Source: Terriglobus albidus
Lineage (GTDB): Bacteria > Acidobacteriota > Terriglobia > Terriglobales > Acidobacteriaceae
Assembly: GCF_008000815.1 (NCBI RefSeq)
Contig: NZ_CP042806.1
Span: 2,418,001 to 2,482,000 of the forward strand
Direction of reading: 5' to 3'
DNA: 64,000 nt
The notes under the pieces are model-generated. The model was not told the origin of the DNA. It saw nothing but the letters and a program-made list of their open reading frames with translations, and searched no databases. The position numbers were made by a program, and so were the translations under genes. Below, in pieces: positions 10,031-29,852 of this stretch. Within the stretch, counting starts at the first letter, position 1, and the number at the start of each line of letters is the position of its first letter.

Positions 10031-10054
10031 TCTTCTGCGAAGGCTGGAAAGAGC

Positions 10055-10085
10055 TTGACAGGGATTCTCTAATGGTACTACCTTT
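10055..10085 (+). promoter_or_regulatory. promoter with GntR-type operator before the GH39 operon
   Basis: TTGACA (10055-10060), then 10 bases, then AATGGTACTACCTTT (10071-10085). The arms match in six of seven positions around a single central base. The layout is the same as at 5762-5792. The site lies in the divergent region next to the GntR gene, so it may also mediate autoregulation. Confidence 0.75.
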
Positions 10086-10119
10086 GGCGCATTCGAATAC
10101 CTCGCATAAAGGGGATGTA

Positions 10120-11838
10120 ATGCAGCTCAACAAACTCAGCCAGCTGGCTTTTGTGTTGGCGGCGTCTGCCGGTGTCGTGAGTGCTCAGGGCACTGTTCCT
10201 GCGCCATTACCGGCATCGAGTGAAAAGCCAGTTGCCATTTCTGTGGACCTATCCAAGCCGATTGCGCCCAATAAGCCGATCTATAGCTGGTTTGGTTATG
10301 ACGAGGGCAACTACACCACCATGCGCGATGGAAAGAAGTTGCTGGGGGAGCTGCGAGACCTTAGCCCAGTGCCGGTCTACATCCGCGCGCATCACCTGCT
10401 GACCTCCGGGAATGGAGTGGCGGAGCTGAAGTGGAGCTCGACCAACATCTACAGTGAAGACGCTAACGGCAAGCCGGTCTATGACTTCAAGATCATCGAT
10501 GGCATCTTCGACGAGTACAAAGCCGCCGGTGTCCGGCCAATGGTGGAACTCGGCTTTATGCCGAAGGATCTGGCAGCGACGCTTCCGGACCGGAAGGAAT
10601 ATCAGGTCCATTATCCGAAGAGCGCCATCTCAGGAGCGTCCAACAATCCTCCGAAGGACTACAAGAAGTGGGGCGAGCTGGTGCGGGTGCTGACCGCCCA
10701 TCTGGTCGAGCGCTACGGACGTGAGACGGTTCTTCAGTGGTACTTCGAAGTGTGGAATGAGCCCGATATCGACTACTGGCACGCCACCCCCGAGGACTAC
10801 TGGAAGTTGTATGACTATGCGGTTGCCGGTGTGCGGTCTGCACTGCCCGGAGCCAGGGTCGGCGGGCCTGCGACGACCAGCCCGCGTTCGGACAAGGCAC
10901 AGAAGTTTCTGCAGAACTTCCTCGAGCATGTGAACACGGGCAAGAGCGCGGCCACGGGTGGCGCGGTGCCTATGGACTTTATCTCCTTCCATGTGAAGGG
11001 GCAGCCCACTATCACCAACGGACATGTACAGATGGGGATCGATCGGGAGCTGAAGGATGCAGACCGCGGATTTGCAACCATCGCCTCGTTTGCCAGGTTC
11101 AAGAACCTGCCGATCATTCTGAGCGAGGCGGATCCGGAGGGATGTGCGGCGTGCTCCAGCAAGGTCAATCCGGCAAACAACTATCGCAACGGCACGCTCT
11201 ATCCCGCATATACAGCGGCGGCCTACAAGGCACTCTTCGAACTGCAGGACAAGCACAAGGTCAACCTGATCTCGATGCTGAGCTGGTCGTTTGAGTTTGA
11301 AGACCGGGAGTATTTCGAAGGCTTCCGTTCGCTCTCTTCGAATGGAGTCAACAAGCCCGTTCTCAATCTCTTCCGCATGGTTGCTCTGATGGGTCCGACC
11401 CGAGTGGCGACGTCGAGTGACGGGAAGGTGCCGCTGGAGAGCCTGGTGGCGAGTGGCGTGCGCGAAGCCGCCGATGTCGATGCAATGGCAACCATCGGAA
11501 CGCGTCGTGCCGATGTGCTGCTGTGGAACTATCATGATGCCGATGAGCCGGCTGCTGCGGCGCCGACCAGCGTCGCCATTACTGGACTTCCAGTGACAGC
11601 GAAGCGCGTGCTGGTCAAACACTTCCGCATCGATGCCAATCACAGCAATGCATACACTGTGTGGAAGGCGATGGGATCCCCGCAGCATCCAACTTCGGAA
11701 CAGTATGCGGAGCTGGCGGATAAGGCGGGCCTGCAGCTTTTCGACTCACCCGTTTGGATGGATGTGGTGAACGGGCAGATCAAGGTCAGCACTGAGATGC
11801 CGCGCGAGTCCATCTCACTGCTACAGGTGAGCTGGTAA
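10120..11838 (+). CDS. GH39-like glycosidase (beta-xylosidase-type)
   Basis: This is a secreted protein of 572 aa with signal peptide MQLNKLSQLAFVLAASAGVVSAQ. The clan GH-A barrel resembles GH39: the acid/base Glu is in YFEVWNEPDIDYW (about residue 214) and the probable nucleophile Glu is in IILSEADPEG (about 336). SFHVKGQP and ISMLSWSFEFED follow the family pattern. GH39 members include beta-xylosidases and alpha-L-iduronidases, so the exact substrate is open. ATG 10120 is preceded by AAAGGGG; the frame is open to 10072, but that overlaps the operator. It is the first gene of an operon with a transporter and three sugar-acid enzymes. Confidence 0.8.
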   Translation: MQLNKLSQLAFVLAASAGVVSAQGTVPAPLPASSEKPVAISVDLSKPIAPNKPIYSWFGYDEGNYTTMRDGKKLLGELRDLSPVPVYIRAHHLLTSGNGVAELKWSSTNIYSEDANGKPVYDFKIIDGIFDEYKAAGVRPMVELGFMPKDLAATLPDRKEYQVHYPKSAISGASNNPPKDYKKWGELVRVLTAHLVERYGRETVLQWYFEVWNEPDIDYWHATPEDYWKLYDYAVAGVRSALPGARVGGPATTSPRSDKAQKFLQNFLEHVNTGKSAATGGAVPMDFISFHVKGQPTITNGHVQMGIDRELKDADRGFATIASFARFKNLPIILSEADPEGCAACSSKVNPANNYRNGTLYPAYTAAAYKALFELQDKHKVNLISMLSWSFEFEDREYFEGFRSLSSNGVNKPVLNLFRMVALMGPTRVATSSDGKVPLESLVASGVREAADVDAMATIGTRRADVLLWNYHDADEPAAAAPTSVAITGLPVTAKRVLVKHFRIDANHSNAYTVWKAMGSPQHPTSEQYAELADKAGLQLFDSPVWMDVVNGQIKVSTEMPRESISLLQVSW

Positions 11839-11850
11839 CGGAAAAGGGCG

Positions 11851-13134
11851 ATGACGATGGCCACGACCATGCGGAGTGAGTACAACCGTCTGTTGGAGAC
11901 GCGCTGGTACTACGTCGTACTGGTGACAGCGGCGATCGCCATCAGCTACTTCGACCGGCAGACGATTTCGGTGGCGATTGCTGCTATCCAGCAGTCGATA
12001 CCGATCTCGGAGCAGCAGTTCTCGTATTTACAGACTGCCTTTCTGCTGGCCTATGCGGCCATGTATATCGCCGGAGGACGGCTTCTGGACCGCATCGGTA
12101 CTAGCCGTGGATTTCTGCTGATCATGCTGTGGTGGTCGTTGGCATGTGCGCTTCATGGCTTCGCGCGCAACTTCACATGGTTGCTGGGTATGCGGTTTCT
12201 GCTGGGCATGGGCGAGGGGGGAGCGTTTCCGGCTGCGACCCGCGTTGTCGCGGAGTGGATGCCGCGAGAGCAGCGTTCGACGGCGATGGGACTGATCAAT
12301 GCCGGCACCGCATTCGGCTCCGTGCTGGCTCCGCCGTTGATTGGCGCTCTCATCCTCAACACCGGGTGGCGTTCCGTCTTCTTTGTCGCCGGGGCGATTG
12401 GTATGGCATGGACACTCTGGTGGGCGTTGAGCTACCGCAATAATCCCGCCACGTTGACGATGAGTACGCAGGATGCCCGCCTGCTGGCGGAGAAGTTATC
12501 GCTGCGCGAGATCGTAGGCGTGCGTAGCGTCCAGGTACTGGTCTTCGCCAAGTTCATGAGCGATTCAGCATGGTTTTTCCTGCTCTTCTGGTTGCCGAAG
12601 TATCTCTATGACGCCCGTGGCTTCGATATAAAACACGTCAGTTATTACGCCTGGATTCCTTATGCCGCGTCAGGTGTGGGCAGCTTTCTGGGTGGATACT
12701 TTTCCGCTCAGCTGTTACGACGCGGGCGCTCACTCAACTTCTCGCGCAAGCTGGTACTTGGGATCAATGCGGCGACGATGCCAGTGGTGATGCTGGTGCC
12801 CTTTGTTCCGGTAAGTGCTGCGATCTTCCTCTTCAGCCTCGCCTTCTTCTCGCAGCAGTCATGGTCGGGATTGATCATGACTATTCCCGCGGACGTCTTT
12901 CCGCTTTCGGCAGTTGGGACCGTCGCCGGACTAGTTGGTTTCGGTGGATCAATGGGCGGAGCGATCTTCGGCATAGTTGCGGGTCGTATGTTGCAGCACG
13001 GCTTCAGCTATACGGCGTTATTTTTTCTTGTCGGTACCTTCCACCTGATCGGCTTCCTGGCTCTGGCATGGCTGGGAGGCAGGATTCAACCACTTCGTTC
13101 AAAAGACCTCCGGGAGATAGAGAGCCTCACATGA
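11851..13134 (+). CDS. MFS transporter, anion:cation symporter (hexuronate/sugar acid) type
   Basis: This is a 427-aa inner-membrane permease with about 12 hydrophobic segments. Early features (ISYFDRQTISVAIAAIQ, GRLLDRIGTSRGF, MGEGGAFPAATRVVAEWMPREQRSTAMG) match the ACS family that includes ExuT and other sugar-acid transporters. Its stop overlaps the ATG of the next gene (ATGA), so translational coupling is likely. ATG 11857 is an alternative start better spaced from AAGGG. The substrate is probably the acid or sugar handled by the following dehydratase. Confidence 0.85.
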   Translation: MTMATTMRSEYNRLLETRWYYVVLVTAAIAISYFDRQTISVAIAAIQQSIPISEQQFSYLQTAFLLAYAAMYIAGGRLLDRIGTSRGFLLIMLWWSLACALHGFARNFTWLLGMRFLLGMGEGGAFPAATRVVAEWMPREQRSTAMGLINAGTAFGSVLAPPLIGALILNTGWRSVFFVAGAIGMAWTLWWALSYRNNPATLTMSTQDARLLAEKLSLREIVGVRSVQVLVFAKFMSDSAWFFLLFWLPKYLYDARGFDIKHVSYYAWIPYAASGVGSFLGGYFSAQLLRRGRSLNFSRKLVLGINAATMPVVMLVPFVPVSAAIFLFSLAFFSQQSWSGLIMTIPADVFPLSAVGTVAGLVGFGGSMGGAIFGIVAGRMLQHGFSYTALFFLVGTFHLIGFLALAWLGGRIQPLRSKDLREIESLT

Positions 13135-14303
13135 AGATCACTGAAGTCCGTACACGTGTCGTGCAATGGGAAGGTGAGACGGTTCCATTGCCCCCGCACT
13201 TCTGCACCAATCCCATGGATCTGGTCAGCTTTCGCCAGGCATCGATGGGTAACTTCGCTTTTCATGGATGGGTGTTGGTAGAAATCTTTACGGACAACGG
13301 TCTCGTTGGACTTGGGAACGCGGCACTGTCGCCTATGGTGACCAAGACCCTAATCGATACTTATTTGCGGCCTCTGTTGATCGGTGCTGACCCCTGGGAT
13401 GTCGAGTTCCTCTGGCAGCAGATGTATCGGCGAACACTGGCTTTTGGACGCAAGGGGGTAGCGCTCACAGCGATTTCGGCGGTGGATATAGCGCTCTGGG
13501 ACCTATTGGGCAAGGATGCAAAGCAACCGGTCTTCCGCTTGCTGGGCGGGCGCACCAAAGACCGGATTCCCGTCTATGCCAGCCGCCTGTACGCGATGCC
13601 GATCCCTGAATTACGCTCCGAGGCTCAGCGGTATAAAAATGAGGGCTACAAGGCGATGAAGCTTCGCTTTGGTTGGGGGCCGCTTGATGGAGCGGAGGGC
13701 ATGCAGAAGAACCTGGAACTCATTCGCACGGTAAGAGAGGTAGTCGGCGACGGTGTCGATATCATGGCCGATGCTTACATGGGATGGACACTGGACTACG
13801 CCAAGCGAATGCTGCCGCTGCTGGAGCCATTTCATCTGCGCTGGCTGGAAGAGCCTGTCATCCCAGATGACACCCGCGGGTATAAGGAATTGAAAGCGTA
13901 TGGCCGGGTCCCGATCGCAGGCGGTGAGCACGAGTTCACCATCTTCGGCTTCCGCGAACTCCTGGAGAATAACGCCCTCGATTACATTCAGTTCGACACG
14001 AATCGCGTTGGCGGTATCAGCCAGGCACGAAAGATCTCGGCCCTGGCGGAGTCATTCCAGATTCCGGTCGTGCCCCATGCAGGACAGATGCATAACTATC
14101 ATGTCGTGATGGCGAGCCTGAACTCGCCGATCGCCGAGTTTTTTCCCAAGGTAGATGTAGAGGTCGGGAACGAGCTGTTCTGGTACATCTTCGACGGCGA
14201 GCCGGTCCCGACCGATGGCCACATCAATCTCGATGAGAGTAAGCCGGGACTTGGTCTGACGGTTAACGAAGATTCACTGCGGCAATTCCACGTGATTGGA
14301 TAA
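13131..14303 (+). CDS. enolase-superfamily sugar-acid dehydratase, L-rhamnonate dehydratase-like
   Basis: This is a cytoplasmic protein of 390 aa in the mandelate racemase/enolase superfamily. The capping domain is at about 1-125 (ISAVDIALWDLLGK) and the barrel follows. YKAMKLRFGWGPLDG aligns with the rhamnonate dehydratase segment around its HWGPHDG. Metal ligands are probably Asp in DIMADAYMG, Glu in RWLEEPVIPDD and Glu in AGGEHE, with the catalytic His in VVPHAGQMHNYH. It should remove water from an aldonate to give a 2-keto-3-deoxy acid. The start is the ATG that overlaps the transporter stop. The stereochemical specificity cannot be read from the sequence. Confidence 0.82.
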   Translation: MKITEVRTRVVQWEGETVPLPPHFCTNPMDLVSFRQASMGNFAFHGWVLVEIFTDNGLVGLGNAALSPMVTKTLIDTYLRPLLIGADPWDVEFLWQQMYRRTLAFGRKGVALTAISAVDIALWDLLGKDAKQPVFRLLGGRTKDRIPVYASRLYAMPIPELRSEAQRYKNEGYKAMKLRFGWGPLDGAEGMQKNLELIRTVREVVGDGVDIMADAYMGWTLDYAKRMLPLLEPFHLRWLEEPVIPDDTRGYKELKAYGRVPIAGGEHEFTIFGFRELLENNALDYIQFDTNRVGGISQARKISALAESFQIPVVPHAGQMHNYHVVMASLNSPIAEFFPKVDVEVGNELFWYIFDGEPVPTDGHINLDESKPGLGLTVNEDSLRQFHVIG

Positions 14304-14306
14304 ACG

Positions 14307-15314
14307 ATGGCTCTTCATCTGGTTCAGCTTACAAACGGAGTTCAGCGCCGGGTCGCGCGTGTCGATGGAGACGGACTGATGTGCCTCAGCAACGTGTCAT
14401 CCGTATACGATCTGGCGCGTGATTGTGTTCGCGTACGACAGTCACTTGCGGCGTGTGCCGAAGCGCTGGATGTGGACGCGACGTTACGGTATGAGCCGAT
14501 CTACTCAGGGCAGTCGGAGTGGCGTCTGCTGCCGCCGGTGGATGTGCCGGGGAATCCGTCGCGCTGCATCGTCTCCGGAACTGGTCTCACGCATCTGGGC
14601 AGCGCCGCGTCGCGTCAGGCCATGCATGCGATGCAGGCCGAGGCGATGACAGACAGCATGCGCATGTTTCAGTGGGGACTGCTGGAGGGGAATCCCGGAA
14701 AAGGTAAGGTCGGCGTTGCTCCGGAGTGGTTTTATAAAGGAACCGGCACGATGGTGCGGGCTCATCTTCAACCGCTCGATGTGCCGTTTTATGCCGAGGA
14801 CGGCGGTGAAGAAGCCGAGGTCGCCGGTATCTACTTCATTGACAATGAGGGCATGCCGCAACGCCTTGGGTTTACTGCGGGTAATGAATTTTCAGATCAT
14901 GTTTTTGAGAAGAAAAACTACCTGAACCTTGCCGGCTCGAAGCTGCGGTCTTGTTCTCTGGGGCCGGAGCTGGTGGTGACCGACGATTTTGCGCGGGTGC
15001 CGGGCAGGGTTTCGATCGAGAGAGAGGGGAAGGAGCTCTGGTCTGCCGCGATCGAGACAGGCGAAGAGGCGATGTGTCACAGCCTCCAGAATCTGGAACA
15101 TCATCACTTCAAGTTCGAAAATCATCGTATTCCGGGCGACCTGCATGTGCACTTTCTAGGTGCTGCCGCCCTTAGCTTCAGCAACAACGTTAGTCTGGTA
15201 GAAGGCGACTGGATGCAGGTTGCGTTCGAGGGCTTTGGGCGTCCGTTGCGGAACCCACTTCGGGTAGCAACGCCGCAGTGTGATCGCTTGATTACCGTGC
15301 ACTCACTCGCCTAG
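14307..15314 (+). CDS. FAH-superfamily protein, AraD1/GguC-like
   Basis: This is a 335-aa cytoplasmic protein whose C-terminal two-thirds has the fumarylacetoacetate hydrolase fold (PEWFYKGTGTMVRAHLQPLDVP, EAEVAGIYFIDNEG, GFTAGNEFSDH). The N-terminal segment contains GTGLTHLGSAASRQAMH, as in AraD1/GguC proteins linked to pentose and sugar-acid catabolism. It starts 4 bases after the dehydratase stop. The likely role is dehydration or C-C cleavage of the 2-keto-3-deoxy acid made by the preceding enzyme. It might also supply the 2,4-diketo-3-deoxy acid hydrolase step missing from the fucose cluster, but that is speculation. Confidence 0.75.
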   Translation: MALHLVQLTNGVQRRVARVDGDGLMCLSNVSSVYDLARDCVRVRQSLAACAEALDVDATLRYEPIYSGQSEWRLLPPVDVPGNPSRCIVSGTGLTHLGSAASRQAMHAMQAEAMTDSMRMFQWGLLEGNPGKGKVGVAPEWFYKGTGTMVRAHLQPLDVPFYAEDGGEEAEVAGIYFIDNEGMPQRLGFTAGNEFSDHVFEKKNYLNLAGSKLRSCSLGPELVVTDDFARVPGRVSIEREGKELWSAAIETGEEAMCHSLQNLEHHHFKFENHRIPGDLHVHFLGAAALSFSNNVSLVEGDWMQVAFEGFGRPLRNPLRVATPQCDRLITVHSLA

Positions 15315-15332
15315 CTGAAACCGGAGAATGGC

Positions 15333-16205
15333 ATGAAGAGGATTGCTTTGCTGGGTTTGGGGACGATGGGCGCCGGTATGGGGAAGCGCCTGCTGGATGC
15401 GGGATTCTCACTGGCGGTTTATAACCGTACGGCTGCCAAAGCCGAGACGCTTCGGGAGGCCGGCGCTGTGGTAGCTGCTTCCCCAGCTGAGGCTGCTGGC
15501 GGCGCAGAGGTCGTGATCTCCATGCTGGCTGACGACCAGGCATCGCGAATGGTCTGGATGGGTGCCGAGGGTGCGCTCGCATCGGTGCCCGCCGGCGCCA
15601 TCCTGGTGGAGTGCGGTACGGTGACTCCGGACTGGGTGCAGGAATTGGGTCACGCAGCACAGGGGAAAGGGTGCGTGCTGCTGGATGCGCCGGTGACCGG
15701 GAGCAGACTGCAGGCTGCCGGAGGGGAGCTCACCTTTCTCGTAGGTGGGCCACTGACGGAGCTTGAGACGGCTCGGCCGGTGTTGGAGGCCATGGGAAAG
15801 AAGATCGTTCATGTAGGTCCCTCGGGCAGCGGAAGCCGCCTGAAGCTAGTCAACAACTTCCTGTGTGCGGTGCAGCTAGCCTCATTGGCGGAGGCTATCG
15901 GCTGGATGGAGCGCGCGGGGCTGGATATGGAGCTTTCGCTGGATGCGCTGAGCACAGGCGCTCCCGGGAGCCCATTGCTGAAGACCATGTCTCAGCGCAT
16001 GATGAAACGCGACTATCAGGTTAATTTTCTACTCCGGCTTCTGGGCAAGGACGTTGGGTATGCGCAGAAAGATGCCCAGCAGACCGGTATTTCCCTCCAC
16101 ACGGCAGGCAGCACGCTGGACCTCCTGGAGAGAGCGAAAGAATTGGGCTACGGAGAGCAGGACATGTCCTCCGTCGTGGAGCAGTTCCGCAACGGTAAGG
16201 GATAG
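15333..16205 (+). CDS. beta-hydroxyacid dehydrogenase (GarR/3-HIBDH family)
   Basis: This is a 290-aa NAD(P)-dependent oxidoreductase. The Rossmann motif GLGTMGAGMGKRLLDAGF is at 7-24, the substrate motif DAPVTGSRLQAAGGELTFLVGG at about 119-140, and the catalytic Lys is in GSRLKLVNNF (about 172). Family members reduce tartronate semialdehyde or oxidise 3-hydroxyisobutyrate. Here it probably reduces a semialdehyde or aldehyde fragment from sugar-acid breakdown. It is the last gene of the operon. Its stop codon TAG (16203-16205) is formed by the first bases of the dispersed repeat, which suggests that the original 3' end was altered by insertion. Confidence 0.88.
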   Translation: MKRIALLGLGTMGAGMGKRLLDAGFSLAVYNRTAAKAETLREAGAVVAASPAEAAGGAEVVISMLADDQASRMVWMGAEGALASVPAGAILVECGTVTPDWVQELGHAAQGKGCVLLDAPVTGSRLQAAGGELTFLVGGPLTELETARPVLEAMGKKIVHVGPSGSGSRLKLVNNFLCAVQLASLAEAIGWMERAGLDMELSLDALSTGAPGSPLLKTMSQRMMKRDYQVNFLLRLLGKDVGYAQKDAQQTGISLHTAGSTLDLLERAKELGYGEQDMSSVVEQFRNGKG

Positions 16206-20981: not shown

Positions 20982-21392
20982 TTATTCCAGATGAGCAGGC
21001 TGCAGCGTCCAGTTGATAGCGGAGACGCTGCTCTCAAAGGGGAGCCGGCGAACGAGCTCTTCGGCGATATCCGTGTGACGTCCTGTCGTATGGAAGATAG
21101 CCTTGATCTGCATGCAATTTGCAGGCTCGGTATCTTCGCTATGCAACGATTGCAGCACTGCTGTGGTCTGCGCAATGGTTCTCAGCAGCAAGGCTCGCAG
21201 ATGTGCTTCATCCTGGGAGCGGCAGTTGAGGGAGATTTCGTACGTCGCTTCCGTGGGCGCAGTTGAGGTTAGAACAGGGTGTAGTAAGCGGGCGAGCGGC
21301 CGAAGCAGGATGTTGGTAAGAACGACGACGATCATCAGAAGGAACGCGAAGAGGAGTTTGACATCTGTCGCTACCAGTGCCCGATTCTTTCT
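20982..21392 (-). pseudogene. mgtC: 5'-truncated mgtC/sapB-family remnant
   Basis: The minus-strand frame is open from just after a TGA at 21393-21395. It encodes only one hydrophobic helix (KLLFAFLLMIVVVLTNILLRPLAR) followed by an ACT-like C-terminal domain (YEISLNCRSQDEAHLRALLL, QIKAIFHTTGR, VSAINWTL). These match the last transmembrane helix and cytoplasmic domain of MgtC/SapB proteins, which are normally about 230 aa with four or more further helices. The N-terminal membrane part is missing and no other piece is seen nearby. ATG 21335 could give a 117-aa product, but a functional protein is unlikely. Confidence 0.7.
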
Positions 21393-21446: not shown

Positions 21447-23633
21447 TTATTGAAGTGCGAGCAGGGCAGAAAGCTCTGTACCGGAATCTGCTTGAGAGAG
21501 GGAATTTGTAATCGCTTCGGGCGTCAGGGGATAGGAGAAAAAATATCCCTGCGCGAATTCGCATCCTAGAGACCGTATCTTGTCGACCTGTTCCTTGGTC
21601 TCGATTCCTTCTGCGACCAACTCCATCCCCAATTGGTGACCGAGAGTAATGATCAACTCAACGATCCCGCTTGGATTGCGGGGAGAGTCCACCGACGAGA
21701 TGAAGGACCGGTCGATCTTCAGCGTATCTAAAGGGAAATGGTGAAGATAGCTCAGCGAGGAAAAGCCCGTTCCGAAGTCGTCGCAGCTAAGCCCGACTCC
21801 GATCTCCTTCAGCTTTTTGAGAGTGATTTCCGCCTGAGCCGCATTGGTCATTGTGAGAGTCTCAGTGATTTCAACGGTCATGAACTCCGGCGCAAGACGT
21901 GTCTCTTCGAGCATGGACGAGATAGAGTTCAGAAGATCCGGATCCGCAAACTGCTTTGCCGAGACGTTCACCGAAACCTTGAAGCGAGTATTGAAGCGGC
22001 GGTTCCACTCTTCGATCTGGGCGCAGGCCTGGCGCATCACCCAGGCTCCGAGCGGAATAATCAGCCCCATCTCTTCGGCAGCGGAGATAAAGTGCCCCGG
22101 AGCGACGATGCCGATTCCCGGCCGGTCCCATCGCAGGAGAGCTTCAAATCCATGTACGGTTTCTGTATCGAGAGAGACAATCGGCTGGTAATGGATGCGG
22201 AACTGTTCGCGCTCAAAGGCGCTCCGCAGGTCACTTTCCAACTTACGCCGATTGACACCTCTGTTATGAAGCTCCGGATCACAGATCCGATGTTTTCCAC
22301 GGCCTTCCAGTTTGGCCTCATACATTGCGGTATCGGCATCTGTCAGCACGTCCTTGGCGTTATCCATACCGACATCGCTGACGGATGACCCAATGCTGGC
22401 TGTCACTATAACCTCTTCGTCCGCGACGAAGATCGGAAGCGAGAGTTCCGCAATAATCGATTCGGCAAGGAGTTCGACATCGGCAGTAGTATCGATGGGA
22501 TTCAAAAGAATTACGAATTCATCTCCGCCGATTCTGGCAACAACATCTGAGTTCAGACGGGCTGCCGCGCCTTCGTCGAGCGCTCTATGGCGGGCGGCGC
22601 AGTAGAGAAGCCGTTTTGCGATCTCCTTGATAAGTTCGTCGCCGGCAATATGCCCAATGGTGTCATTGATGGTTTTGAACCTGTCGATATCAATAAAAAG
22701 AACGGCGAACTTCGTCTCCCCATCCCTGTTTTCCGGAGCGACGGTTCTGGAGAGGTGCTCGACGAAGTAGCGGCGGTTGGCAACGTGTGTCAGGGAGTCA
22801 TGGTGCGCCTCATAGAGCAGCTTGGCTTCTGCCTGTTTCCGCTCGATGATCTCTTTCTGTAGTGCAGCTGTCCGCTCCTGGACCTTGCTCTCCAGCACGC
22901 CGTTCGCATTGTGCAGGGCGAAGTCTCTTTCCTCGATCTTCTCCAGCATCTGGTTGAAGGACTGGATCAGGCTTCCAACTTCATCGGATCCTCCGGCCTG
23001 GGCGCGCAGCGAGTAGTCTTTGCTGTCGGCGACCTGGGTTACAAGCCCGGCCAGGCGAGCAATCGGTCCACCAATCGCGGAAACCAGCAATCCGGAGATC
23101 AGGTAGGTAATGCAAATGGAGATGAAAAGTACCAGAGAGGCGATCAGAAGATAGCGGCGAAGTTTGACGTGGAACCCGTCGAGCGTAGAGACAATGAGAA
23201 TTGAGCCTGTTTTTTCGCCATCCAGGTAAACTGGCCGTGCGAGCAGCAGACGATCGTCGGCGAAGTGTGCCCCTTCCTTGACTGGAAGCGCGGGCGCCGG
23301 CCCCGCGTGCTCCGTAGCCCTGTCGTACCGAGCGAAAAGGGAGCCATCGATGTCATAGAGATATGCGCCGCTGATGTCCGAGGCCTGGGCGAGCGCATGA
23401 AGAATTTGCTCGGCCGTACGGGAATCACTGAAAGCAAGCGATGCAGCCGCATTCGACCCGACGGTGCCGGCAAGTGTTTTGAGTTCCGCTTCAGCGGAGG
23501 TCCGGAACTGCGCCCGTTCATAGACGGAGAAGCCGATCAGCGCCAGCGTCAGCGCAAGCAGCGTCGAGCCGATCACCAGCAGCCGCAGCTTCTGCCGGAT
23601 AGGGAGGTCGCGGATTTGAAGGTTGAGTTTCAT
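21447..23633 (-). CDS. membrane GGDEF-EAL protein (c-di-GMP turnover)
   Basis: This is a 728-aa inner-membrane signalling protein. TM1 is at about 17-37, a periplasmic CHASE8-like sensor at about 40-155, TM2 at about 160-185, HAMP at about 185-240, then a coiled coil to about 270. The GGDEF domain has an intact GGDEF at 369-373, but the usual RxxD inhibitory site reads LNSD, so product inhibition may be lost. The EAL domain is intact by motif: EAL at 497-499, then EITETLTM, CDDFGTGFSSL and KIDRSFI. It could both make and degrade cyclic di-GMP. It is the last gene of a three-gene operon with a YfiR-like protein and a TonB receptor, and is comparable to YfiN. Confidence 0.92.
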   Translation of the reverse strand: MKLNLQIRDLPIRQKLRLLVIGSTLLALTLALIGFSVYERAQFRTSAEAELKTLAGTVGSNAAASLAFSDSRTAEQILHALAQASDISGAYLYDIDGSLFARYDRATEHAGPAPALPVKEGAHFADDRLLLARPVYLDGEKTGSILIVSTLDGFHVKLRRYLLIASLVLFISICITYLISGLLVSAIGGPIARLAGLVTQVADSKDYSLRAQAGGSDEVGSLIQSFNQMLEKIEERDFALHNANGVLESKVQERTAALQKEIIERKQAEAKLLYEAHHDSLTHVANRRYFVEHLSRTVAPENRDGETKFAVLFIDIDRFKTINDTIGHIAGDELIKEIAKRLLYCAARHRALDEGAAARLNSDVVARIGGDEFVILLNPIDTTADVELLAESIIAELSLPIFVADEEVIVTASIGSSVSDVGMDNAKDVLTDADTAMYEAKLEGRGKHRICDPELHNRGVNRRKLESDLRSAFEREQFRIHYQPIVSLDTETVHGFEALLRWDRPGIGIVAPGHFISAAEEMGLIIPLGAWVMRQACAQIEEWNRRFNTRFKVSVNVSAKQFADPDLLNSISSMLEETRLAPEFMTVEITETLTMTNAAQAEITLKKLKEIGVGLSCDDFGTGFSSLSYLHHFPLDTLKIDRSFISSVDSPRNPSGIVELIITLGHQLGMELVAEGIETKEQVDKIRSLGCEFAQGYFFSYPLTPEAITNSLSQADSGTELSALLALQ

Positions 23634-23675
23634 CGTTTATGAGCCCATTCGAGCTGCCTACGGCACACACTATAT

Positions 23676-24281
23676 CTATCGAGTGGAAACCGCCCTTGCG
23701 AGAGATAGCAACATCGAACTGACGGTCAGATTGGATTTTGTGATGGCTGCAAGATTGACGTCGAAACGCAAACGATCATTTTCTCGCCGGAAGGCGACCA
23801 TTCCCCCGTACTGAGTAAAGGATTCGTCGTCTCCGACGGTGAGAATCGGAAGGTTGCCAAGATCGTTAACCACGGCGCTTATCTCTCCGCGCTGCAGTCC
23901 TGGAATAAAGGCGATGTGACAACTGTGAGCATCAGCCACTCGCCGTACATGGGCTACTTTGATGGAGTGTCCCTGAACCTTCTTCGCGCCGATCGTTTTT
24001 TCCAGGGAGCCGTCAAACGGATCTCCGTTCACTGTGCAGATTACGAACGGCTCATCGCCGGAAGGAAAGGCAGATGCCGGCCAGGTAGTGAGCTGGGCAA
24101 AGTGGAAGAGAAATGCCGCCTTGAGCTGGTATTCGTCATACCCCGGGGCGTCGACCGTAACCGCTCTGAGAGGGGTGAGGAAAAGCCAACCCAGGGTGCC
24201 GATCCAAATCGACATGCGTCGCCACGCGCGCCAAAGCGCGAAGGGCCGCTGCAAATCGATTTGTTGTCCGATGAGAGACAT
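23676..24281 (-). CDS. YfiR-like periplasmic protein (DUF4154)
   Basis: This 201-aa protein has a signal segment around MSIWIGTLGWLFLTPLRA. The DUF4154/YfiR pattern follows: EYQLKAAFLFHFAQLTTWPA, FVICTVNGDPFDGSLEKTI, CHIAFIPGLQRGE, LPILTVGDDESFTQYGGMVAF, NRLRF-like DRLRFDVNLAAI, and SSMLLSLAR. In the Yfi system, YfiR sits in the periplasm and represses the YfiN diguanylate cyclase. The gene precedes the GGDEF-EAL gene by 42 bases and overlaps the receptor stop by one base (TAATG), so the three are co-transcribed. The true start may be the internal ATG at about codon 22. Confidence 0.85.
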   Translation of the reverse strand: MSLIGQQIDLQRPFALWRAWRRMSIWIGTLGWLFLTPLRAVTVDAPGYDEYQLKAAFLFHFAQLTTWPASAFPSGDEPFVICTVNGDPFDGSLEKTIGAKKVQGHSIKVAHVRRVADAHSCHIAFIPGLQRGEISAVVNDLGNLPILTVGDDESFTQYGGMVAFRRENDRLRFDVNLAAITKSNLTVSSMLLSLARAVSTR

Positions 24282-26359
24282 TACCGCCCGCCACCGTGCC
24301 AGACGAGTTTTATCCGGAAGCTTCTTCCGTCCTGCTGCAATGCATCCTGACGGTGCTGTTCTGCCCCGGGATCGTAGAAGGTCTTGTCGAGTGCGTTATA
24401 GAGACTGGCGGAGAGATCAAGATGACCGAAGACGTCCCGGCTCAGCAGAGTGAAGTTCAAGGTGGTATAGGGGCCGACCGTGTTTTGAGCCAGGGTGGAG
24501 CGTCGGCCAACATACTGCGCATCGATTGTGGCAAAGGTCTTCTTTGTCAGTAACGGAATGCTGGCATTCAACTTTCCAAGATGCTTTGGCGAGTTGATCT
24601 TTCCTTCTCCGTCATCACCTAGCTGCTGGAATGTATTGCTATAGCCGAGGATCGCTGTCGCACCGTTGAGCCATTTTTTCTGGAATGTGGTTTCCAGGCC
24701 GGCGGTTTCCATCTTGCCTTCGTTCTCGAATCCGAACGTGTTTGCCTCATTGGTTGCGATGAAGTTCCGCATGCGATTGGCATATAGCGCGGTGGACAGA
24801 AGAAACCCGCTGGAGAATTCCCGGTCCCAGTTTCCTTCCCATGCGAGGTTGCGTTCCGCCGCCAATTTGGACGGTGTATATGCCGGGTAGTAGTACAACT
24901 CATACGCATTGGGTGAGCGAAATGACTGCCCGAATATGAGTTTGAAATGGTTGCGGTCGCCTTGTGCGAAACGGAGAGCAAGCCGAGGGCTAGTCATCCA
25001 GCCGACACGCGGATTGTAGTCAACACGAATGCTCGGAGCGAGCAGGAAGGATCCACGAAGGGGAATCTCACCCTCGATGTAGGGCGCGGCGACGAAGGAC
25101 GGGTGATCGTAGTTCAGATAGCTGGTGAATGGTGATACGTCGTAATTGGTGACTTCCTGGCGGAAGTCATTCCGATACTCAAAACCTGAGACAAAACGAT
25201 ACTTGTCCCACAACCGGGTAGTGGACTGCAGTTCCAGGCCGAAACTCTCGCCGCGGCCAAAGTCTTTATTGAGGACACTTCCGTCCTGTCCGACCTGAAC
25301 AAATTTGCCGTCGTACATGTAGCGGTCGAAGTAGGATCGTGCGAGGAGGGAGGAACTATTGCCGATGGAGCGTTCGTAACGAAGATCCAGATATCCATGC
25401 GCGTCGGCTTCCCGGTTACGACGATCATTGAACACGTCGCCGAAGGCTCCGGTTGGATCTCCCTTCTCCCGGGCGTTATAAGCCGCCTGAAAGCGCAAGC
25501 CGCGTCTGGTCAGGGTTGCGAGCAGGTCAACGAACTGGTCGTCATCCGCATGGCTGACGATGCCGTTATTGGTAGACGGATCGTCATATTCGGGATAGTA
25601 GAGCTGCTTGGGGCCCTGGCTGCCATAGAAGGTGCCCGAGAGCAGTGTTTGTATCCCGGCGATCTCGTGTCCATAACTCAGCCGGCCACGATATGTGTTG
25701 AATGATCCTGCGTCTGATGCTGCTTCAACCCCATTGAGATCCGAGCCCTTGCGGGTAATAACATTGATTACCCCAAAGACGGCATTTGTGCCATAGAGAG
25801 AGGATGCAGGGCCACGTGTGATCTCGACATGATCGATAAGGTCCACATCGATGCCGAATTCGGTACCGACCATCGCCTGTTCGAAGATAGCGTCATTCAG
25901 ACGGTGTCCATCGACCATCAGCAGCACGCGTGTGTTGTAGTCTCCAGGATTGGAAAAACCGCGCACGCCAACATAGCTGTATTGGCGGTCATAGGTAATG
26001 TAAAACCCCTGGACCCCTCGAAGAATGTCTGCGAGTGTGCGGTATCCAGACCGCTGGATCTGTTCACGGGTAACGACTGTCACGGACGCGGGCGCCTCCA
26101 TGGAGGACTGCGAAAATCGGGAGGCGGTCGAGATCGGCGTATTCAACAGATCGGGAAGAGAGAGCTCCGTGATGTCTGCCGGTTTCTGTTGTGCTGGGAG
26201 AGGCGCAATGACTGCGCAAAACATCGTTGCTGCGAGATAGCGGACGAGGCGTGGGGGATGACTGAGCCCGGGGGAGGGAGTTCGCCGTGTTGGGGAGTTC
26301 CGGGAGGTGCTAGAGTGCCTCGCCCATCTTTTTTTGTAAACCTTTTCCCCGACCGACAC
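24281..26359 (-). CDS. TonB-dependent receptor (BtuB/CirA type) in a yfiR/yfiN-like operon
   Basis: This is a 692-aa outer-membrane receptor without the Oar N-terminal sandwich. The plug is at about 75-190 (PASVTVVTREQIQRSGYRTLADILRGVQGFYI, YVGVRGFSNPGDYNTRVLLMVDGHRLND, VEITRGPASSLYGTNAVFGVINVITRKG). A 22-strand-type barrel follows to about 690. SLPDLLNTPISTASR before the plug resembles the region seen in receptors of c-di-GMP/YfiR operons. GTG 26359 has GAGGGGG upstream but gives a long basic N-terminus before the hydrophobic core LVRYLAATMFCAVIAPLPAQ, so the start is uncertain. The partner genes suggest that ligand occupancy is reported to a c-di-GMP enzyme. Confidence 0.88.
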   Translation of the reverse strand: MSVGEKVYKKRWARHSSTSRNSPTRRTPSPGLSHPPRLVRYLAATMFCAVIAPLPAQQKPADITELSLPDLLNTPISTASRFSQSSMEAPASVTVVTREQIQRSGYRTLADILRGVQGFYITYDRQYSYVGVRGFSNPGDYNTRVLLMVDGHRLNDAIFEQAMVGTEFGIDVDLIDHVEITRGPASSLYGTNAVFGVINVITRKGSDLNGVEAASDAGSFNTYRGRLSYGHEIAGIQTLLSGTFYGSQGPKQLYYPEYDDPSTNNGIVSHADDDQFVDLLATLTRRGLRFQAAYNAREKGDPTGAFGDVFNDRRNREADAHGYLDLRYERSIGNSSSLLARSYFDRYMYDGKFVQVGQDGSVLNKDFGRGESFGLELQSTTRLWDKYRFVSGFEYRNDFRQEVTNYDVSPFTSYLNYDHPSFVAAPYIEGEIPLRGSFLLAPSIRVDYNPRVGWMTSPRLALRFAQGDRNHFKLIFGQSFRSPNAYELYYYPAYTPSKLAAERNLAWEGNWDREFSSGFLLSTALYANRMRNFIATNEANTFGFENEGKMETAGLETTFQKKWLNGATAILGYSNTFQQLGDDGEGKINSPKHLGKLNASIPLLTKKTFATIDAQYVGRRSTLAQNTVGPYTTLNFTLLSRDVFGHLDLSASLYNALDKTFYDPGAEQHRQDALQQDGRSFRIKLVWHGGGR

Positions 26360-26660
26360 GTTGCCCCCTCAGGCTAAGTGATCTATTTTGTGAGTTTTGT
26401 GAAATCATAGAAGGCTCTCTGAAATATCTCCAATCCTATTTAGAAGGCGGTATACGTGCTGCCACTGCAAAAGGGGAAATAGTCAGTTCGTCAGAGTTCC
26501 AGGGTGCCTGTCTGCGGACATCATGGGTTCGCCTCCGTTCAAACGATGGATTTTCAGTCTTGATTCGACATGCGATGAATGGGCCCTCTGATCCTTCTAT
26601 CGGCAATTGCCTGGATAGCCTTAGCTCTATCAGAGTCTGAGACCGGCCATGAGAAGAGGG
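26360..26660. other. intergenic, no gene seen
   Basis: This is a 301-bp gap upstream of the receptor gene and downstream of the kinase gene, both on the minus strand. It contains a direct repeat TTTTGTGA/TTTTGTGA (26383-26403) near the receptor start. I see no convincing promoter, terminator or RNA. Confidence 0.5.
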
Positions 26661-28586
26661 TTATTCGAAGCTGTTCACAGGAAGCGTGAACGAGATGACG
26701 GTACCGCCGCCTGATTCCGCTTTACGGCTGCGGATTTGAATCCTGCCGCCATGTCTGGCGATGATCTCTCCGCTTACCCATAGCCCGAGACCCGAACCCT
26801 TTTCCCCTTTGGTTGTGAAGAAAGCGTCGAAGATACGTGCTTTGACTGCTGACTCCATTCCGGGGCCGGTATCGGCTACGGTGATGCGAATACGATCTGT
26901 GCCGTCGGCGGAGGTAGAGACGCGGCGGAGCTGTAACCGTAACTTTCCAGGAGTGCCGGCCATGGCATCAAGAGCGTTACTTAGCAGGTTGACCAGTACC
27001 TGCCGTATGTCTGAAGCGTGAATCAGAATTGCAGGCACGTCTGCGAAATCTCGTTCTACCGTGACCTGCTGCTCACTGAGCCGGCGAGCGAAGAGCGCCA
27101 GCGCAGACTCCAGCAGTTGCGATGGTGCGGTGCGAGTCTGACGGTTGCTCTGACGATGGAACTGAAGGGTTTGTGTCGCAATCTGGGAGACGCGTTGAAG
27201 TTCATGCTGGGCATCTCTGAGGTATGACTGTGTCTCTTTATTGACTTCGCTGGAGGTCTCGGCCAGATAGATGAAGTTTGTTACGGCTTCAAGCGGATTG
27301 TTGATCTCGTGAGCGATCATCGAGGCCAATTTGCCGACGGCCGCAAGTTTTTCGCTTCGCCGCAAGCTCTCTTCAGCTCTTCGCCGATTAGTGACGTCAT
27401 CTACCGTTCCAATCGTTCCCATCGGCAGACCCGCTTCATTGAAGAAGACTGTGGATCGTCCGAAGATCCATCGTGTTTCCCCGTCGGGCAGCAGCAATCT
27501 GTATTCGATCTCAAAGGAGGATCCGCGGCTGCTTGCATCAGACCAGCCTTCGATAAGATGGGAGACGTCGTCTGGGTGGATGCGGGCGGTCCAGCCCCGT
27601 CCAAGGATCTCCGGTTCATTCATATGCCAGATCTCCTGGAGCCGAGGGTTGGTATAGGAGACATTCGCCTGCAGATCGGCCTGAAAGATGCCTACCGGAC
27701 TGGATGCACTGAGACCGCGGAAGCGGGCTTCGCTGGCGCGAAGCGCCTGCTCCGCAACTTTGCGATCGGTGATGTCGGAAGCAACGCCTACGATCTCTCT
27801 GACGGTTCCATCTCCGTCAAGGTAAACACGGCCGTGGCTCAGGATCCAACGCACGCCGCCGTCGGGACGCACAAGGCGGTACTCCATCTTGGCCTCGGAG
27901 CCCTGCCGAATTGCCTCCGTCAGAACCTCACGCCGCCGGGCGCGATCATCCGGATGGATCAGTGATTCAAAAAGTTCCGGAGTGATGATGGTTCCCGCAG
28001 GGATACCGGCTACGGCATAACACTGCGCATCCCAATCAATGACATTGGTGGCGACGTTATAGGACCAGATCCCGAGACTCGCGGCCCCGGCGGCAAGGCG
28101 GATACGTTCCTCACTTCGGCGTAAGGCAAACTCGGTCTGCATCCTCGTTCGCCGCTCCGTTGCTGTTCGTAACTCGCGCAGCACAACGAAGGGCAGGCGG
28201 GTGAGATCGTCTTTCTGGAGATAGTCCTGTGCGCCAGCTTTCACCAGGGTGTCGGCATGCTCATGACGGGGACTTTCGCAGATCAGGAGGAAGGGGATTG
28301 CCGGGGCAAGTTCACGTACGATTTGAAGCGACACCAGGGCAGGGAGCTCCTGAACGGAATCCCCGCAGATGACAATATCCCAGTCGGAAGAGGCGAGCGC
28401 CCTTCTGAGTTGTGTCCCCGTGGACGCGACGCGATAGGTATGCGGCAGGCCTGCTGACTCGAGCGCATGTCGAATCGGAAGGATATCCGTCTCGCGATCG
28501 TCAAGAAAGAGAACACGCAGCACGGCACATGACATAGAAACCTGGGCGACAGCCGATCGGGAACTCGGCATCTCAGATGCCCGCAA
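26661..28586 (-). CDS. PAS-domain histidine kinase with N-terminal pseudo-receiver
   Basis: This is a 641-aa cytoplasmic kinase with no membrane segment. A receiver-like domain is at about 22-140, two PAS/PAC domains at about 160-275 and 285-403, HisKA with phosphoacceptor His in IAHEINNPLEAV (about 426), and HATPase with N box (LVNLLSNALDAM), DTGPGM and KGSGLGLW. In the receiver, the acidic pair LDD (29-30) and Lys125 remain, but the phosphoacceptor position in DIVICGD is Gly75 with Asp76 next to it, so normal phosphorylation looks unlikely. The first codon at 28586 would be TTG; ATG at 28571 or 28535 is an alternative. No cognate response regulator lies nearby. Confidence 0.87.
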   Translation of the reverse strand: MRASEMPSSRSAVAQVSMSCAVLRVLFLDDRETDILPIRHALESAGLPHTYRVASTGTQLRRALASSDWDIVICGDSVQELPALVSLQIVRELAPAIPFLLICESPRHEHADTLVKAGAQDYLQKDDLTRLPFVVLRELRTATERRTRMQTEFALRRSEERIRLAAGAASLGIWSYNVATNVIDWDAQCYAVAGIPAGTIITPELFESLIHPDDRARRREVLTEAIRQGSEAKMEYRLVRPDGGVRWILSHGRVYLDGDGTVREIVGVASDITDRKVAEQALRASEARFRGLSASSPVGIFQADLQANVSYTNPRLQEIWHMNEPEILGRGWTARIHPDDVSHLIEGWSDASSRGSSFEIEYRLLLPDGETRWIFGRSTVFFNEAGLPMGTIGTVDDVTNRRRAEESLRRSEKLAAVGKLASMIAHEINNPLEAVTNFIYLAETSSEVNKETQSYLRDAQHELQRVSQIATQTLQFHRQSNRQTRTAPSQLLESALALFARRLSEQQVTVERDFADVPAILIHASDIRQVLVNLLSNALDAMAGTPGKLRLQLRRVSTSADGTDRIRITVADTGPGMESAVKARIFDAFFTTKGEKGSGLGLWVSGEIIARHGGRIQIRSRKAESGGGTVISFTLPVNSFE

Positions 28587-28796
28587 CGAATCGAAGACAA
28601 TCTTACCGCTTCATGACAGAAATGCCCTAGATCGTCTTTGATGGCATATCAACGCTCTTTGAGCGGTACGTTTCATCAGGACTGGTGCTATGATCGGCAT
28701 GCTTCTGAGGAGCAATGTTCACGCGCTCTGAACGTTCGTTCGATACACCGAAGAAGCCTCACATCCCATCATGATTCAGCCCGGAGTTATCTTCCA

Positions 28797-29852
28797 ATGA
28801 CGATGTATCGGTATGCGTTTGTCCTATTTGTTGCAACTTCGATCAAAAGCGTGGCGTTTGCCGCCTCGGCGTATCACTCGCCCTGGGATGCGCATCCAGT
28901 AAAAGAGACCAGCGCGGCCTATAGCTGTCCGGAGCCGGCGCACCTGCCCGTGGATTTTGTCACGGATGGCTTCTACGCAGACAACGATCCGACGCACTCC
29001 ATCATTGATCCGGTGAAACAGAAGGCGTATGCGGAGTCGTCCGGTCCGGTGAAGCGCGAGGGCGATCTGATGGTCGCCGCGGCCGACGAGTTTCGAAAGA
29101 CTGGATCCGCGCAGGCTGCCAAATGCGTTTTGCAGCACCTGGAATTCCAGGCAAAAGAGGGTGCGCTGACCGGAAAGATGTCATCCTCACAGGCCTACTT
29201 TGTTCAGGGATGGGTTGTGGGTGCGGAAGCCATTGCTTATCTGAAGGTCGGGGGGCCGGCAAAGACGACAGCGGCGCAGCGCGCACTGATTTTGCCATGG
29301 CTGGAGAAGGTGGGTGCGCAGACGGTGAAGTTCTATGAAGACCGCGCCAAAGAGAGCGGCGGCAACAGAGCCCAGAACCACTTCTACTGGGCTGCAGTGG
29401 AACTGGCAGCTATTGGCATTGCGGCGAATAACCCCAACGACTTCGACTGGGCGATGCAGCAGGCGAAAGCCGGGATAGCGTCAATCCGCCCTGACGGAAC
29501 GCTTGCGGAAGAGATGCGCCGAGGTAAACGCGCTCTGCACTATCACCTCTATGCTGCGTCGCCCCTCGTCATGTTGGCAGAGCTCGGACTGGCGAACGGT
29601 GTCGATCTTTATGCGGAGCACTCCGGGGCTTTGAAGAAGTTGATTGCTATCTCGACGACTGGCCTGGTCGATTCCTCATTTTTCGATAAGCAGACCGGGA
29701 TTCCGCAGGAGCGTCCTGATCCACCGACAGCCGAAGCAATCGGCTGGGCAGAACCCTACAATCGCCGTTTTCCCGATCCTGTTACGACAAAGCTGCTCGC
29801 TGCGGCTCCCAGCCATAGCTACATGTACCTGGGCGGACTTCCGCCTCAATAA
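28797..29852 (+). CDS. PL5-family alginate lyase-like protein
   Basis: This is a secreted protein of 351 aa with signal MYRYAFVLFVATSIKSVAFAA. The helical toroid features of the AlgL/PL5 family are present: SSSQAYFVQGWVVGAEAIAYLKV, QNHFYWAAVELAAIG (catalytic His region) and EEMRRGKRALHYHLYAASPLVMLAE (catalytic Tyr region). It should cleave poly-beta-D-mannuronate by beta-elimination, probably in the periplasm. ATG 28797 with GGAG upstream was chosen over the longer open frame from 28638. No alginate biosynthesis or other alginolytic gene is nearby, so it may act on another uronate polymer. It is convergent with the Oar-like transporter. Confidence 0.85.
   Translation: MTMYRYAFVLFVATSIKSVAFAASAYHSPWDAHPVKETSAAYSCPEPAHLPVDFVTDGFYADNDPTHSIIDPVKQKAYAESSGPVKREGDLMVAAADEFRKTGSAQAAKCVLQHLEFQAKEGALTGKMSSSQAYFVQGWVVGAEAIAYLKVGGPAKTTAAQRALILPWLEKVGAQTVKFYEDRAKESGGNRAQNHFYWAAVELAAIGIAANNPNDFDWAMQQAKAGIASIRPDGTLAEEMRRGKRALHYHLYAASPLVMLAELGLANGVDLYAEHSGALKKLIAISTTGLVDSSFFDKQTGIPQERPDPPTAEAIGWAEPYNRRFPDPVTTKLLAAAPSHSYMYLGGLPPQ

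Follow-up and report, generated by a model that had tools for sequence, protein, structure and literature searches.

Can an outer-membrane receptor of the TonB type report to cyclic di-GMP (c-di-GMP) metabolism inside the cell? The question is raised by a 64,000-nt stretch of the Terriglobus albidus genome (contig NZ_CP042806.1, positions 2,418,001 to 2,482,000; hereafter the window), where three genes on the minus strand at 21447-26359 encode a TonB-dependent receptor (TBDR), a YfiR-like periplasmic protein and a sensor-GGDEF-EAL enzyme. The cassette is real, conserved and partly known, and its best explanation, to which we would give a probability of roughly 0.55, is a three-part trans-envelope signalling cassette running from receptor to YfiR-like protein to c-di-GMP enzyme. 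Its parts are the following.

24281-26359 (-): TBDR; Plug 2.1e-23 and TonB barrel 7.4e-24 by Pfam; the annotated GTG start is uncertain
26135-26182 (-): N-terminal tail of the TBDR, PADITELSLPDLLNTP, residues 60-75, immediately N-terminal of the plug; tail type goes by adaptor
23676-24281 (-): YfiR-like periplasmic adaptor (DUF4154); PF13689 'YfiR/HmsC-like', E 3.5e-43
21447-23633 (-): inner-membrane CHASE8-HAMP-GGDEF-EAL protein; four domains above the Pfam cut-off, catalytic motifs present
23193-23504 (-): CHASE8 periplasmic sensor domain, residues 44-147; Pfam 1.5e-16
23430-23432 (-): Phe68, aligned to the Phe of the YfiN AAVVF motif in the sensor alignment; proposed YfiR contact
22818-22823 (-): junction between kinase and regulator similarity, residues 271-272, from alignments with locus L119
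22296-22808 (-): GGDEF domain, residues 276-446, by Pfam and motif pattern; active-site motif intact, inhibitory site (I-site) lost
21528-22232 (-): EAL domain, residues 468-702, by Pfam and motif pattern; motifs intact

In the known system, YfiR represses YfiN via the periplasmic PAS/CHASE8 domain of the latter, and YfiB captures YfiR (PMC3375315, PMC4887326; here and below, papers are cited for the excerpts of them that were available). In the window, the start codon of the YfiR-like gene lies inside the TBDR stop codon (TAATG) and 42 bases then separate the YfiR-like gene from the sensor-GGDEF-EAL gene; on re-reading, the coordinates, strand and spacing given in the initial annotation were correct, and its three protein identities agree with Pfam (Plug and barrel; PF13689; CHASE8, HAMP, GGDEF and EAL). 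It had also seen the TBDR as standing in the place of YfiB, which is supported and holds well beyond the window. A scan of 15 window proteins (the cassette and its flanks) revealed no OmpA domain of the YfiB kind.

The source genome, a single contig of 6.4 Mb, has one match to DUF4154, one to CHASE8, 51 to Plug, 32 to GGDEF and 12 to EAL at E 0.001; the single DUF4154 and CHASE8 matches are both in the cassette, so the genome's sole YfiR-like protein and its sole CHASE8 sensor adjoin. The gene-order survey that the initial annotation had proposed was made from both ends of the cassette. The YfiR-first set comprised 102 YfiR-like genes, namely that of the window and 101 in 100 fetched wide regions (most of the hits in the family plus 19 from outside it, picked largely by score), and a TBDR was counted as directly upstream when the gap was below 350 bases. 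A TBDR is directly upstream in 87 of them, a sensor directly downstream in 91, and both in 79. With just 51 Plug matches in a 6.4-Mb genome, a TBDR upstream of 87 in 102 genes means that this gene order is not chance. Matches to the NCBIfam YfiR-like model NF053591 were found in 79 of 396 genomes sampled from the phylum and in 65 of 200 from the family.

For the receptor-first set, a collection of species genomes was queried with the window plug, and the best 80 of 564 confirmed stretches gave 79 loci, which by their record titles span Acidobacteriota, Nitrospirae, Planctomycetes, Myxococcota, other deltaproteobacteria, beta- and gammaproteobacteria, Verrucomicrobia and others. The gene directly downstream of the receptor encodes a YfiR in 56 loci and a PF04392-type protein in 11, the rest being accounted for by a divergent YfiR (2), a YfiR upstream (1), a contig end (5) or neither (4). 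L207 is one of the last four; its receptor frame is split, and a PF04392-type gene was found behind the receptor (the locus is the same record as L321), which brings the PF04392-type total to 12/79. Within the class to which one gammaproteobacterial locus belongs, the TOL_0244 receptor profile is matched at 1e-60 in 53 of 369 genomes, and 24 of the 30 gammaproteobacterial TOL_0244-like receptor loci fetched have YfiR downstream (in one case as a fragment where the contig ends, in another at a distance of 638 bases). In the draw from the family, 17 of 19 receptor matches above 200 bits adjoin YfiR, and the 16 genomes of those receptor matches are all among the 65 YfiR-positive genomes of 200, with positions compared by hand and the receptor and YfiR draws assumed to be identical. 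Judged by sequence, the front end made of receptor tail, adaptor and sensor is a conserved unit in many bacterial phyla. Other arrangements were also seen: at L182 (9542-11917) a receptor with a YfiR-type tail precedes a GGDEF gene and genes resembling motA/motB, with no adaptor in between, and at L212 and L222 the YfiR-sensor genes are divergent from the receptor and a gene for an Ig-like repeat protein lies directly behind it.

The receptor itself varies with the adaptor. The stretch before the plug resembles DLTxLSLEELMNIxV ('SLEELM'-type) in YfiR-paired receptors and EExLLFQEIPSV ('LFQEIP'-type) in PF04392-paired ones. Of the 120 YfiR-paired receptor tails that could be anchored (16 of the 136 were not), 113 have the YfiR-type motif, against 0/10 anchored PF04392-paired tails; the eleventh PF04392-paired receptor, L199, which is not among the anchored tails, reads IMFQEIPSV. 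As a control, 4 of 29 other receptors of the T. albidus genome have a loose YfiR-type motif. On a tree of receptor plug and barrel with the tail excluded (59 of 62 rows classifiable), the tail matches the adaptor in all six independent contrasts on well-supported branches (sign test, 0.031). Close linkage alone does not explain this match, because the whole plug and barrel sequence separates the tail from the adaptor gene. A slightly broadened YfiR-type motif fits 27/27 anchored tails of the gammaproteobacterial set.

The same dependence is seen in the sensor. The AAVVF site of YfiN was mapped genetically and proposed as the YfiR-binding site (PMC3375315), and the window sensor has a site of this type, reading NAAASLAF and containing Phe68 (position 63 of the trimmed sensor alignment). 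The residue aligned to the AAVVF Phe is F in 124 of 126 YfiR-paired sensors and in none of the 11 PF04392-paired ones. In previously unused loci it is F in 20/20 gammaproteobacterial YfiR-type sensors and T in 21/21 aligned PF04392-type sensors (23/23 with two re-fetched records kept; one fragment has no residue there). The initial annotation had named the YfiR-like protein as the likely link to the cyclase, an idea that gains support from the TBDR tail and the YfiR-binding residue of the sensor both following the adaptor.

What, then, is the protein that takes the place of YfiR? At 11 of the receptor-first loci, receptor and sensor are separated by a gene whose product is about 318 amino acids long and was identified by Pfam as PF04392 (ABC_sub_bind) in all four of the 11 that were scanned; the 11 proteins are alike, with 35-66% identity to the first of them. 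For one of these proteins, 3lkv and 3lft are among the relatives in the PDB. The model of the window YfiR-like protein (pLDDT 94.8) matches YfiR crystal structures best (best Z 16.9), and its closest non-YfiR folds are again 3lkv (Z 12.8) and 3lft (Z 11.7), with a Rhodothermus substrate-binding protein about level with 3lft (Z 11.5) and outranking 3lkv in Foldseek. The likeness of P. aeruginosa YfiR to 3LFT and 3LKV by Dali has already been published (PMC4655355). Since 3lkv and 3lft are common to the matches of the PF04392-type protein and of the window YfiR model, two adaptors of related fold occupy one slot.

From these comparisons we infer that direct signalling from receptor to YfiR to c-di-GMP is the best reading. 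The TonB receptor in the outer membrane would bind or import a ligand, and the state of its periplasmic N-terminal tail would govern the periplasmic YfiR-like adaptor. This adaptor would dock on CHASE8 at a patch around Phe68 and restrain the output of the enzyme; on capture of the adaptor by the receptor, the restraint would be lifted and GGDEF-EAL activity would shift, most likely toward c-di-GMP synthesis without product inhibition. Ligand binding at the receptor would in this way be passed on to c-di-GMP. The receptor tail may use the pocket that in YfiR takes F57 of YfiB: four residues of the pocket are identical in the window YfiR (L166, I169, V176 and L181) and P178 is replaced by S, according to our alignment and the residue list of PMC4887326, and this hydrophobic pocket is kept despite no YfiB having been found nearby. 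Elsewhere in the family, the role of adaptor would fall to a YfiR-like protein or to one of the PF04392 binding type, and the signal would end in a histidine kinase, a hybrid kinase, GGDEF, GGDEF-EAL or a methyl-accepting chemotaxis protein (MCP). As to the window enzyme, the reported loss of the I-site (LNSD instead of the expected RxxD) and the intact EAL domain were both confirmed by motif pattern; the GGDEF motif is likewise intact, as would be required of a bifunctional GGDEF-EAL protein. Loss of the I-site as a family-wide trait was rejected, RxxD being present in 23 of 28 cassette GGDEF proteins.

Three other explanations were weighed. It could be that the receptor only carries the ligand in, and that the YfiR-like protein, as half of a binding protein, binds the ligand and acts on CHASE8 with no receptor contact, which we regard as unlikely though a serious competitor. 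The YfiR fold is indeed common to PF04392 binding proteins, which fill its slot in 11/79 loci (12 with L207), and P. aeruginosa YfiR binds vitamin B6 and L-Trp, if weakly (PMC4887326); the change of N-terminal tail with adaptor would however go unexplained, unless the tail serves to adapt the use of TonB to different cargo. The same matching of tail to adaptor, together with the persistence of receptor and adaptor side by side across phyla, speaks against the YfiR-like protein answering periplasmic redox or envelope stress alone next to a co-transcribed uptake gene of unrelated purpose, which seems improbable to us even though many members of the YfiR-like family have a cysteine pair (72 and 96 of 102) that aligns to the first cysteine pair of YfiR. 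Least credible, and in our view very improbable, is that the receptor is the target of the cassette and not its input, its expression or activity being controlled by the output. One apparent operon and other signalling genes often nearby would suit such control, but the same front end is kept with other outputs (GGDEF-EAL, MCP), and matching of tail and adaptor would not be expected.

Signalling by direct contact of receptor and adaptor also has a number of observations against it. Fifteen of the 102 YfiR genes have no upstream TBDR; L283 and L284 are strong type-1 receptors with a YfiR-type tail and no adjoining adaptor (their genomes carry YfiR elsewhere), and the L195 receptor has a PF04392-type tail with no adaptor seen beside it. 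The window YfiR scores 43.1 bits against the NCBIfam model 'regulatory sequestration protein YfiR', below its cut-off of 85, and the PF04392 version of the cassette also fits an adaptor that senses imported ligand without touching the receptor. The patterns for the tail were defined once the first loci had already been seen, and were slightly loosened between successive counts, and the contrasts on well-supported branches fall to one with plug columns alone and to three with the barrel alone. A later set of 25 PF04392-type loci was fetched from the phylum to which a Nitrospirae locus belongs, and a receptor is visible in 22 of these, 19 being new; the pre-set positive pattern for PF04392-type tails proved too narrow, fitting only 7/22, the LFxEIP-like core in 22/22 was recognised by eye only, and the YfiR-type pattern was found in 1 of 17 new anchored tails at PF04392-type loci. 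Finally, 14 of 140 YfiR-paired sensors, nine with GGDEF-EAL output, were aligned too fragmentarily to be counted, and the PF04392-paired sensors may form one clade, so that the Phe match alone could reflect descent.

TonB surface signalling of the FecA-FecR kind is a familiar precedent, in which the TBDR signals through its periplasmic N-terminus. The window TBDR, whose best PDB relatives are the colicin I receptor and BtuB, differs in having no match to the STN domain (Pfam scan, E 0.001), and neither FecR nor an ECF sigma factor was matched among the 15 window proteins scanned. With YfiBNR of P. aeruginosa the cassette shares the YfiR fold and C-terminal surface, a CHASE8-HAMP sensor with an AAVVF-like site, and GGDEF output; unlike YfiBNR, it has a TBDR for the YfiB lipoprotein and GGDEF-EAL for GGDEF, and in the alignment the window protein lacks the second YfiR cysteine pair. 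The window sensor reaches 241.5 bits against the NCBIfam DgcN/YfiN equivalog, below the cut-off of 325. Closer in kind are three NCBIfam models for the same kinds of protein, the TOL_0244 receptor (NF053590), the TOL_0243 YfiR-like protein (NF053591) and HK_near_YfiR_like (NF053592), which, to go by their names and by our gene-order counts, form one cassette. The window YfiR-like protein passes NF053591 (139.2 bits, cut-off 125), the receptor stays far below the NF053590 cut-off (135.8 against 645), and the sensor part comes 1.4 bits short for NF053592 (192.6 against 194) and has no kinase domain; the window output is GGDEF-EAL, unlike the kinase of the TOL trio. TOL_0244 goes up sevenfold on the n-C28 alkane relative to Tween 80 (PMC6304351). 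A signalling role is likewise described for another TBDR, Alcanivorax OmpS, known here through citing papers only, which is reported to set off a cascade for detecting alkanes and is 40.3% similar to TOL_0244 (PMC6304351, PMC5174103, PMC9788540).

The initial annotation had allowed that the gene order might be known already. The order is not new as such, given the NCBIfam trio and the modular YfiR-YfiN core with GGDEF-EAL, histidine phosphotransfer (HPT), kinase and MCP outputs of Malone et al. 2012 (PMC3375315), whose alignment of distant homologues included an acidobacterium; the word 'TonB' is absent from the main text of that paper. In the open-access literature searched (for PMC3375315, the main text only), no description of the TBDR-YfiR pairing was found, and within that literature the matching of receptor tail, adaptor and sensor, the PF04392 variant and the relay short-circuit described below appear new.

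The c-di-GMP output of the window is a minority version, histidine kinases being dominant. When the YfiR-first set is pooled with the YfiR-like genes of the receptor-first loci, 154 distinct genes result; a TBDR is directly upstream of 136 of these and a sensor directly downstream of 140. The outputs of the 140 sensors are hybrid kinase (52), kinase (46), GGDEF-EAL (27) and HisKA_3-like kinase (4), with single cases of GGDEF, HWE-like kinase and MCP and eight unclassified or cut off. Neighbours were labelled by small purpose-built hidden Markov models, of which the MCP, HisKA_3-like and HWE-like ones were each built on a single seed locus and may overlook members, so that the 8/140 unclassified may conceal more outputs. 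Starred branches of a YfiR plus sensor tree (122 rows) force at least seven changes of output; the tree omits 18 of the 140 sensor loci, namely the eight with unclassified outputs and nine GGDEF-EAL and one hybrid kinase with fragmentary sensor matches. At L067 (8585-12791), TBDR and YfiR precede a pair of CHASE8-HAMP sensor genes whose output is MCP-like, confirmed by Pfam for the first of them, the same front end being tied there to chemotaxis. In 11 kinase cassettes, a REC-GGDEF or REC-GGDEF-EAL gene comes next, within 150 bases.

One locus suggests how the window enzyme may have arisen. L119, from the same-genus genome G297, has two TBDR-YfiR pairs followed by a CHASE8-HAMP-kinase-REC-REC gene, which overlaps the adjacent REC-GGDEF-EAL gene by one base. 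Window residues 4-272 (linker included) align to this hybrid kinase and residues 272-714 to the regulator just past its receiver. The window GGDEF-EAL is 53% identical to that of L119 (next best outside T. albidus, about 45%; own-genome paralogues, at most 37.5%), and in trees of both halves the window, its T. albidus relative and L119 group together. If an operon like that of L119 lost about 2.4 kb in frame, the window gene would be the result. The fusion is suggested to be the derived state, as kinases make up 5/8 of the smallest larger well-supported sensor set around the window group, with the root not proven. A sensor-kinase phosphorelay ending in REC-GGDEF-EAL would have lost its kinase and receiver parts, leaving the sensor to drive GGDEF-EAL directly, and the window enzyme looks like such a short-circuited phosphorelay. 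A second fused/split pair, with the PF04392 adaptor, occurs in Brocadia-type planctomycetes (L180 fused, L230 split). The tandem TBDR-YfiR pairs before one output at L119 (6000-16094) give the appearance of two ligands sharing it.

Within T. albidus, all three genes are under purifying selection, the ratios of nonsynonymous to synonymous substitution (dN/dS) against a T. albidus relative (G273) being 0.10 for the TBDR, 0.28 for the YfiR-like gene and 0.07 for the sensor. The cassette is accessory in the genus, the YfiR-like gene being detected in only three of eight listed same-genus genomes, its own included. Of the 'tight operon' in the initial annotation, gene order and spacing stand; a single transcript is only plausible, since no terminator-like site was found between the three genes in the sequence scan and the promoter-like match ahead of the TBDR is weak. 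As to independent promoters, the scan gave fewer promoter-like sites than shuffled sequence did (1 against 4.4). In the gap ahead of the TBDR, some 135 bases (26527-26661, minus strand) are well conserved in the T. albidus relative; an RNA control element there was considered and rejected, with no Rfam match near the gathering score and no unusual folding. Farther out, 301 bases upstream of the TBDR, lies a PAS histidine kinase gene with a weak receiver match (26661-28586, minus strand), which is kept beside the cassette in the T. albidus relative (91% identity, dN/dS 0.11); none is annotated directly upstream of the G297 cassette. On the other side, a short open reading frame (20982-21335, minus strand) encodes only the C-terminal domain of MgtC/SapB (PF21770), its membrane part missing, and looks like a remnant. 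The region is flanked by an alginate-lyase-like protein (28638-29852, plus strand) and by a sugar-type cluster of GntR, GH39, MFS and dehydrogenase genes (9167-16205). Neighbouring alginate lyase and beta-helix genes weakly hint at a polysaccharide as the ligand.

To our knowledge, how outer-membrane receptors other than those of the FecA type report to the cytoplasm is poorly known. The YfiR literature, as far as excerpted here, takes YfiB as the outer-membrane partner, and a large set of YfiR-like proteins here has a receptor instead. The receptor that gave the NCBIfam model its name increases in a marine oil degrader given a long alkane (PMC6304351), which makes the proposal testable with known candidate ligands, and the oil degraders point to alkanes as ligands for other members of the cassette. 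We tentatively suggest, at somewhat less than even odds, that STN-less TonB receptors are a general signalling route across many phyla, in which the periplasmic N-terminal tail would code for a YfiR-like or PF04392 adaptor, the two being structurally related, that reads the sensor patch, and in which outputs would be exchanged freely, including by deletion-fusion that converts a phosphorelay to direct control of c-di-GMP. If the match of tail, adaptor and sensor is real, the ligand of a TonB receptor outside the cell would set a c-di-GMP, kinase or chemotaxis response, and the partner of such a receptor would be predictable from its short tail.

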